Origin: Clostridia bacterium
GTDB lineage: Bacteria; Bacillota; Clostridia; UBA1381; UBA9506
Reading direction: 5' to 3'
NCBI GenBank assembly: GCA_017416855.1
Contig: JAFQAZ010000006.1
Coordinates: forward strand, 1 to 34,609
DNA: 34,609 bases
The position numbers were made by a program, and so were the translations under genes. Shown here one piece after another: positions 3,422 through 8,950 of the stretch. Numbering within the stretch: the first letter of the stretch is position 1; each line of letters begins with the position of its first letter. The notes beneath the pieces are model-generated. The model did not search any database. It was not told the DNA's origin and was given only the letters and a program-made list of their open reading frames with translations.

Positions 3422-3450
3422 TTGACAAACCTTTTGCCTTGTTGTATAAT
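3422..3450 (+). promoter_or_regulatory. Consensus sigma-A promoter of tRNA-Leu
   Basis: A perfect TTGACA (3422-3427), 17-base spacer and TATAAT (3445-3450), ending 10 bases before the tRNA. A perfect promoter is expected for a stable RNA gene. Confidence 0.85.
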
Positions 3451-3460
3451 AATCTCCTGA

Positions 3461-3544
3461 GCGAGTGTGCTGGAACTGGCAGACAGGCACGTTTGAGGGG
3501 CGTGTGTCCATGACGTACGGGTTCAAGTCCCGTCACTCGCACCA
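3461..3544 (+). tRNA. tRNA-Leu (anticodon GAG)
   Basis: The acceptor arms GCGAGTG (3461-3467) and CACTCGC (3534-3540) pair perfectly, followed by A and an encoded CCA. The D stem is CTG/CAG and the T arm is ACGGG-TTCAAGT-CCCGT. The anticodon stem CACGT/GCGTG encloses the seven-base loop TTGAGGG, giving GAG, which reads CUU/CUC leucine codons. A long variable arm marks a class II tRNA, as expected for leucine. Confidence 0.93.
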
Positions 3545-3545
3545 G

Positions 3546-3576
3546 AAAAAAGCATCGACTATGTCGGTGCTTTTTT
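3546..3576 (+). terminator. Terminator of tRNA-Leu
   Basis: AAAGCATCGA and TCGGTGCTTT form a stem with a short loop, and a T6 run follows. It starts one base after the tRNA CCA end. Confidence 0.85.
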
Positions 3577-3577
3577 C

Positions 3578-3732
3578 AATGAATTGCCTAACGGCACGAA
3601 TTGAAATCTGCTATTTCATGAATTGAGCCTTACGGCTCATGAATTGCACTTCGTGCATTATAAAGGCAATTCAATTCATGTTGTGATAACAACAATTTAT
3701 GGTGAAACCAATTCATGACAACAAAGTTGTCA
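3578..3732. repeat. Array of seven short hairpins joined by ATGAATT / AATTCAT spacers
   Basis: Seven small inverted repeats lie in a row: TGCC/GGCA (3585), TGAAAT/ATTTCA (3602), TGAGCC/GGCTCA (3624), TGCAC/GTGCA (3645), GTTGT/ACAAC (3680), TGGT/ACCA (3700) and TGACAAC/GTTGTCA (3716). The first four are joined by ATGAATT-type spacers. The last three are joined by the reverse complement, AATTCAT or AATTTAT. GAATTGCC (3581) can also pair with GGCAATTC (3664). Stem sequences differ but each is self-complementary. It resembles MITE/REP-like intergenic elements of Clostridia. No coding capacity. Confidence 0.75.
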
Positions 3733-3759
3733 AATCATTATAAAAATATCCGCACCAAA

Positions 3760-3804
3760 AAACCGTAATATGAGTTGCTAATTTAAACAACCATATTACG
3801 GTTT
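3760..3804 (-). terminator. Terminator of the first XRE gene
   Basis: AAACCGTAATATG (3760-3772) pairs with CATATTACGGTTT (3792-3804) over 13 bp. On the - strand a T-run follows, just past the XRE stop. Confidence 0.8.
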
Positions 3805-8671: not shown

Positions 8672-8950
8672 CATAAAAGCTGTGAACGGAAACAAGTAAG
8701 CTGGGAATGAAGCGGAGAGAAACGGCGGTTGGTGCGAGCCGGGGTTCTGAACCTGACCGAATACAGTCCGGGAGCTGCAAGGGGGAAATTTTTCAGTATC
8801 CCTTGCCGGAAACGCCCGTTATCGCGTAGGGTGGTAAAATTTTTGACTGCTTTTGCCACTCAATGAGGCAGCATCTGTGAGGATGCTGTAAACCGAGGTG
8901 GTATCACGGATATTCGTCCGTCCTCTGGAAAAGAGGACGGGCTTTTTTAT
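8672..8950 (+). promoter_or_regulatory. T-box riboswitch (probably Tyr, specifier UAC)
   Basis: All landmarks of a T-box leader are present. Stem I has AGCT/AGCT and CGGA/TCCG pairings, the AGTA motif (8695-8698), GGAGAG (8714) and the distal loop GGTGCGAGCC (8731-8740). The specifier loop reads GAATACAG (8759-8766). The CCCGTT of stem IIA/B is at 8815-8820. A stem III GCAGCATC/GGATGCTGT leads to the T-box AACCGAGGTGGTATCACGG (8891-8909). The terminator CCGTCCTCT/AGAGGACGG with a T6 run ends at 8948. Uncharged tRNA should stabilise the antiterminator. Specifier TAC followed by A would mean tyrosine; a one-base shift would give ACA (threonine). A second AGGGTGG at 8827 lies within stem II and is not the T-box itself. 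Confidence 0.92.

Follow-up and report, generated by a model that had tools for sequence, protein, structure and literature searches.

The S23 family of four-helix-bundle proteins (PF05635) is widespread and its structures have been solved, while the origin and spread of the 23S rRNA intervening sequences (IVSs) that encode some of its members have long been an open question. In Coxiella burnetii, three tandem GACAGAT heptamers are located directly upstream of the S23p open reading frame (ORF) of the IVS; the 2016 source describes S23p as a protein without known function and the IVS as selfish (PMC4990558). Heptameric repeats are also reported from Xanthomonas and Nostoc, mostly with four units, some of them inverted, and their explanation is left unsettled in the portion of that paper available to us (PMC4692102). 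As for Gut-1, it was listed in 2010 as a non-coding RNA from the human gut only, with no gene link given in the available text (PMC2864571). Finally, the homology of S23 and Avd, a protein of diversity-generating retroelements (DGRs), is noted in the accessible section of PMC10053308; Avd works with its own reverse transcriptase and a template repeat.

The window, i.e. the whole 34,609-nucleotide stretch of Clostridia DNA analysed here, carries an array of four direct and four inverted 7-nt linkers with hairpins between them (3579-3738; Table 1). A preliminary description of this DNA had reported seven hairpins with unrelated, self-complementary stems, separated by a nearly fixed linker that is reversed after the fourth hairpin, and both points were borne out when coordinates and anatomy were checked: four ATGAATT linkers are followed by four AATTCAT linkers, and the seven stems, of 3 to 6 bp, are self-complementary and mutually unrelated. 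At least three outer pairs are formed in 7/7 segments, vs. a maximum of 3/7 in 20,000 letter shuffles of the same segments, and the folding of the 171-nt array stretch, compared with dinucleotide shuffles, gave z-scores of -6.6 (DNA) and -5.2 (RNA). The limits first proposed (3578-3732) fall short of the larger unit, 3545-3738. This unit includes a boundary hairpin (hp0) formerly taken for the terminator of the tRNA-Leu gene and best read as the first hairpin of the array, since the same place holds the first hairpin in other copies. No S23 gene accompanies the window array, and no array family or Gut-1 (RF01706) was returned by Rfam, either for the window at gathering threshold or for positions 3440-3800 at E-values up to 10. 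Two further features were noted in the window: a perfect 13-bp inverted repeat (AAACCGTAATATG/CATATTACGGTTT, 3760-3804) between the array and an HTH gene, probably a terminator, and a T-box leader (RF00230, 113.9 bits) at 8673-8928 on the + strand, flanked by an MFS gene on one side and a sodium:solute symporter gene on the other.

Table 1. Components of the hairpin array and the adjoining tRNA gene, in window positions.
Feature	Positions	Strand	Basis or remark
tRNA-Leu (GAG)	3461..3544	+	ARAGORN, Rfam tRNA; CCA end directly abuts array
hp0, boundary hairpin GAAAAAAGC...GCTTTTTTC, terminator-like	3545..3577	+	First-hairpin position as in other copies
F arm, four ATGAATT linkers	3579..3645	+	3579-3585, 3596-3602 (ACGAATT, one mismatch), 3618-3624, 3639-3645
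F-arm hairpins	3586-3595, 3603-3617, 3625-3638	+	Sequence
Fourth hairpin GCACTTCGTGC	3646..3656	+	Sequence
Conserved centre ATTATAAAGGCAATTC	3657..3672	+	Sequence
R arm, four AATTCAT linkers	3673..3738	+	3673-3679, 3694-3700 (AATTTAT, one mismatch), 3710-3716, 3732-3738 (AAATCAT, one mismatch)
R-arm hairpins	3680-3693, 3701-3709, 3717-3731	+	Sequence

Six array copies were found in the genome of origin (2.37 Mb in 32 contigs), the remaining matches being short or weak, and related arrays in relatives, so the window array is not the single occurrence that would have counted against the preliminary description. The whole element matched 14 of 61 genomes (own included), the identity reaching 88% outside its genus. 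A pattern of two linkers separated by a gap was found in 11/95 genomes of the order (0/95 when read backwards), and one of three linkers in at least 120 stretches of species genomes, nearly all of them gut or rumen Clostridia assemblies, with a few cyanobacterial and other rows taken as listed. This patchy spread of near-identical copies suggests that the element moves between lineages. Concerning a phage or plasmid origin, which was considered and dropped, the element DNA itself had no match in phage and plasmid collections; a shorter pattern gave 34 stretches in viral contigs, about one third being true arrays by eye and the rest tandem repeats or chance. Two phage-labelled faecal contigs (L506 and L507; MT835815 and MT835590) hold S23 genes with GTGATAT- and TGAAAT-type arrays.

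The arrays were traced to S23 through several of their flanks that, when read backwards, show a ribosome-binding site and the protein start MKENKLVDL, which we took to be that of an S23 protein. The PF05635 profile matched in 22/27 genomes, with S23 genes starting beside arrays. An array-blind sample was then obtained by a class-wide S23 search, in which 76/291 genomes matched and part of the listed places was retrieved; 180 distinct S23 genes were found with a profile of our own, 173 of them with enough upstream sequence. An array was called, at a score of at least 2, wherever copies of one 6- or 7-mer, whatever its sequence, were separated by self-complementary segments. Such a call was obtained upstream of 66/173 S23 genes vs. 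0/346 dinucleotide-shuffled upstream regions, and, among array-blind S23 genes, for 56/161 vs. 4/206 other ORFs from comparable loci (odds ratio 27, p 1e-18), the four control positives (L309, L341, L342, L343) being themselves arrays of S23 elements. For 100 of the 173 genes, the caller found no hairpin array on either side.

Where an array is present, its end lies at a median of 42 nt upstream of the S23 start. The exact plan of four forward and four reversed linkers (FFFFRRRR) occurs in 20/63 S23 arrays, most of the others having one or two linkers too few or too many, and full S23 elements have the gene after, or between, two inverted arms. At the same tRNA-Leu site, a congener (G001) has an array in which all linkers are GTGAAAT and the centre is similar, and an S23 gene follows it. 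Solo arrays, on the other hand, are present in genomes without a cognate S23. The genome of the window has no PF05635 match and no intact S23; one of its arrays directly adjoins an S23 fragment, MKENKLVDLSKQFAVDIVNLCTEIKENTKGD, followed by stops. Because this fragment is all that it keeps, the window copy is, to judge by these searches, an ORF-less orphan or relic of an S23 element whose protein has been lost from the genome. With no S23 gene beside it and none intact in the genome, its present function may be nil.

The S23 protein of the ATGAATT clade is TIGR02436 and matches PDB entries 2rld and 2gsc, of five chains each, which are also the nearest structures to its four-helix model (mean pLDDT 91.3). 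Avd and the reverse-transcriptase complexes of DGRs come next (TM 0.72-0.78, no Foldseek E-value being better than 0.07), Avd sharing the fold (4dwl, TM 0.76-0.78 by query length). Plasmid S23 genes (L505, L508, L514, L515) were seen inside or beside restriction-modification or methylase genes, for example between hsdS and hsdR in Monoglobus. The region 1-4600 of L076 resembles a cassette array, small unrelated genes being interspersed with four single arms of the same strand. The idea that single arms by themselves mark gene cassettes was not retained, such arms also bordering unrelated genes such as the one in L063, presumably serine acetyltransferase-like.

A blind tally of the gaps between neighbouring hairpins returned the ATATCGA and TGAAGT families besides ATGAATT. 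In distal-arm orientation, nine linkers are distinguished: ATGAATT, [AG]TGAAAT, GCTAAAT, TCGATAT, GCGATAT, ATGATAT, GTGATAT, GTGAAGT and [AG]TGATGT. Each pairs with one S23 clade (ATGAATT, the window linker, with the KQFAVDIVNLC clade), and the FFFFRRRR plan repeats in the larger families. Mapped onto a tree of 70 S23 proteins (73 of the 173 genes had a call, two unlabelled and one too short being left out), the nine labels need 13 changes, vs. a possible minimum of 8 and a shuffled mean of 45.0 with 0/200 shuffles as low, on a short alignment (119 columns) with many forks open, one mislabelled member (L466, with TCGATAT arrays) and TGAAGT and TGATGT groups that are weak alone (three rows each). 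Linkers of related clades differ by one or two letters: the ATGAATT and GTGAAAT clades share a fork with a support of 87, and the TCGATAT and GCGATAT clades one of 96. These two couples provide matched protein/DNA pairs for specificity testing, and the pairing of an S23 clade with a 7-nt word gives the family a first concrete, testable partner.

Gut-1 belongs to the same material. Its consensus corresponds to the F (first) arm of a GTGAAAT-linker array, with four GUGAAAU-type words and three hairpins, and thus covers one arm of one linker family. It scored above gathering in 9/20 loci picked from S23 loci with arrays (11 matches), and in 2/14 of an earlier locus set.

As for the stems, 380 distinct between-linker segments were collected from non-viral loci, of which 349 start with G and end with C. 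The next two positions pair in 303 of the 346 long-enough segments, whereas re-dealt arms gave a mean of 33.6 and a maximum of 49, and all 16 dinucleotides are found at these positions. On this count, the stem sequence is free and the pairing kept, with nearly perfect covariation over the 349 distinct hairpins, which upholds the stem variation with conserved pairing proposed in the preliminary description. The T before and the A after each hairpin also pair, so that the unpaired linker is reduced to five letters, TGAAT.

The loops are not symmetrical. On the AATTCAT strand, 3- or 4-nt loops read G..A in 119/277 cases and the mirror T..C in 4, the loop-closing pair is C-G in 237/309, and GNNA loops have A (23), C (19), T (15) or G (4) as their third letter. 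In RNA tetraloops, a purine would be favoured at that position. Single-stranded DNA, for its part, forms loops of very high stability with c(GNA)g and c(GNNA)g. When S23-linked arrays are read on one strand, the first arm has T..C loops in 53/87 cases and G..A in 0, and the second arm G..A in 32/57 and T..C in 1. Since the DNA-type GNA/GNNA loops are mirrored, each arm showing them on a different strand, folded single-stranded DNA rather than RNA would be favoured, though less firmly, as the form that matters. The arrays may also have a role as RNA, in view of the share of GNRA among the loops and of the annotation of Gut-1 as an RNA.

For the 100 S23 genes in which no array was called, tandem repeats were sought up to 220 bp away. 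A period of 7 was found in 23 of them, the other periods from 4 to 12 in none and shuffled sequences gave 0; most array-less S23 genes are also without a period-7 repeat. Period 7 was found at 0 of the flanks of 141 other ORFs. Of the S23 loci matched in plasmid or phage-labelled records, 11 of 27 were scanned; 7/11 have period 7 and none another period, in Nostoc (two), Planktothrix, Treponema, Euhalothece, Bernardetia and Chlorohelix. When a second flank was considered (n=30), the repeat was mainly inverted in 13 cases, direct in 6 and undecided in 11. Because period-7 repeats occur beside array-less S23 genes, and heptamers in the Coxiella IVS, a 7-nt unit runs through the S23 family, and the hairpins would be insertions between heptamers.

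The comparison with described systems can be made point by point. As a family, the arrays share with the 23S rRNA IVS, as far as the accessible account of it goes, an S23 ORF (missing from the window copy), complementary flanking arms and tandem heptamers directly upstream of the ORF. They differ in lying outside rRNA genes, at tRNAs, gene 3' ends or promoter-like sites (the window copy, following tRNA-Leu, lacks this IVS trait), in heptamers split by covarying hairpins on a four-plus-four plan, in a clade-specific linker and in abundant ORF-less copies. The Xanthomonas and Nostoc repeats have in common with them the 7-nt unit, mostly in fours and sometimes inverted, but no hairpins between units are described and S23 is never named in the available part of that paper (PMC4692102). 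In the open-licence literature, no paper was found on such arrays, nor on an S23-heptamer link beyond the Coxiella IVS paper.

Concerning the insertion sites, 14/66 S23-linked arrays begin no more than 120 bp downstream of a same-strand tRNA. The preliminary description, in placing the array after a tRNA-Leu terminator, had accordingly seen a recurrent insertion place; the tRNA 3' end stands, and the hairpin called a terminator is best read as hp0. The S23 gene has a tRNA no more than 600 bp upstream in 19/66 cases, none on the opposite strand. As in the window, tRNA-site copies often read CCA-GAAAAAAGC...GCTTTTTTCAA-linker, with CCAGAAAAAAGC...GCTTTTTTCAA before the first linker in tRNA-site copies other than the window one; because this CCA-hairpin-linker text is shared, hp0 is part of the array or of a target hairpin. 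Eight arrays of several linker families (L101, L145, L332, L442, L463, L471, L473, L476) follow the end of one gene (DMFPxTxHVExVxLL), which we take to encode an RlmD-type rRNA methyltransferase and whose final codons come from the pairing arm. Between hp0 and these last codons, the median stem is 9.5 with one mismatch allowed, and reaches at least 9 in 5/8, vs. a median of 5, and none of at least 9, for 18 such gene ends without an array. Since hp0 pairs with the last codons of the gene over longer stems than those at array-less ends, its second arm seems to be a copy of the target.

A promoter-like TATAAT stands directly before hp0 in 17/34 canonical copies, and a -10-like hexamer is found within 60 nt in 21/63 S23 arrays; tRNA-site and gene-end copies are without the TATAAT promoter. 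A motif GGCATCTAAATCGTTCAC, followed after about 6 nt by TATAAT, was also observed past the ends of S23 genes and next to solo arrays (L386, L373, L002 and others), and represents a promoter or an element end. This tail is shared by 10/34 canonical copies and some S23-bearing elements; it was rejected as a general 3' end, being within 450 bp of only 9/173 S23 genes. Searches for an empty site with clean ends or a target duplication found none, the tRNA-Leu locus of congeners holding other sequence. Among 115 array places, 74 could be judged for gene context (21 convergent, 44 tandem and 9 divergent, vs. 56, 119 and 65 in the background) and 27 others overlap an ORF call; by these crude ORF calls, arrays are depleted between divergent genes.

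Taken as a whole, we consider it likely that the window array represents an S23 element orphaned and left without its ORF, and a cis-acting heptamer array of the kind read by a cognate S23 pentamer. That S23 binds its heptamer is, in our view, equally probable: the pentamer would read the heptamers of its clade, with the hairpins looped out. The latter need only fold, in this proposal, so that the heptamers lie adjacent and in register, and any stem sequence would therefore suffice. With moderate confidence, we regard the arms as ends by which a selfish element is mobilised or recognised, and the ORF-less copies as MITE-like derivatives of it. Bound arms would be the cis signal for copying the element into new places, a step in which other enzymes would assist. 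Copies without an ORF, the window copy among them, would move, or have moved, in trans like MITEs. We know of no catalytic activity for S23, and a partner enzyme must hence be assumed. It is conceivable, though doubtful, that snap-back synthesis copies the target end upon integration and that the same process changes a stem in one step. Equally tentative is the wider proposal that S23 proteins, as readers of a heptamer code, drive an undescribed class of mobile elements that copy their ends by snap-back synthesis on the target. If true, 23S rRNA IVSs, the Gut-1 RNA, the bacterial heptamer excess and the hairpin arrays would be one system.

A rival to which we grant somewhat less than an even chance is that the array works as RNA, bound by S23 and forming either a structured 5' leader in the mRNA of that gene or a small RNA that is free, of the Gut-1 type; hairpins and linkers would then act as RNA, in an Avd-like ribonucleoprotein, and mobility, if any, would proceed by reverse transcription. 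The TATAAT and -10-like hexamers, the short distance to the S23 start, the Gut-1 matches in selected S23 loci and the resemblance of the S23 model to DGR ribonucleoprotein subunits all agree with it, whereas the tetraloops are GNNA and not GNRA, the mirrored loops would leave one arm of the transcript with T..C loops, and the promoter is missing from tRNA-site and gene-end copies. That mutation does everything, with slippage or template switching making and repairing the hairpins without structural selection and the linkers conserved as the copies are young, is an unlikely explanation. Template switching is able to create and keep stems, according to the accessible part of PMC8794818, and hp0 at the methyltransferase gene end is a reverse copy of the gene's own last codons; fixed linkers between wholly changed hairpins, nine linker families on the same four-plus-four plan and linkers that track the S23 tree nevertheless argue against it. 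Such a process may still be how the stems change.

Very improbable, next to the S23 reading, is a REP/BIME-type repeat moved by a RAYT transposase, the linked gene envisaged in the preliminary description. REP/BIME sequences with RAYT (TnpAREP) resemble the arrays in that the repeats are small and palindromic, occur in either orientation and have a cognate protein; hairpin arrays do occur near genes in two orientations, and one lies 66 bp downstream of a RAYT gene (G012, L197), one among the RAYT-like flanks read. REPs, however, have a conserved short foot (GTAG/CGTC class) and stem, while the arrays combine free stems (349 distinct G..C-closed segments) with a 7-nt linker, ATGAATT in place of a GTAG foot, and a different protein family. 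A search for Y1_Tnp in 61 genomes, the own one and those of 60 relatives, gave no association (Y1 genes in 9/14 genomes with the element vs. 26/47 without, p 0.76), the genome with the most array matches of all (G006) having no Y1 match, and the expectation of a RAYT gene was thus replaced by S23 as the linked gene. Finally, an ordinary tRNA terminator region with chance hairpins would account for the likeness of hp0 to an intrinsic terminator, but the fold z-scores, the shuffles and the copies elsewhere make its probability negligible.

In the same order, RAYT-like genes (L203, L206, L213 and others) are accompanied by GTAG-type palindromes, GTAGGGGCGATTCACGAATCGCCC, some of them in the reading frame, and the variants of these palindromes at RAYT loci have changed stems that are still paired.
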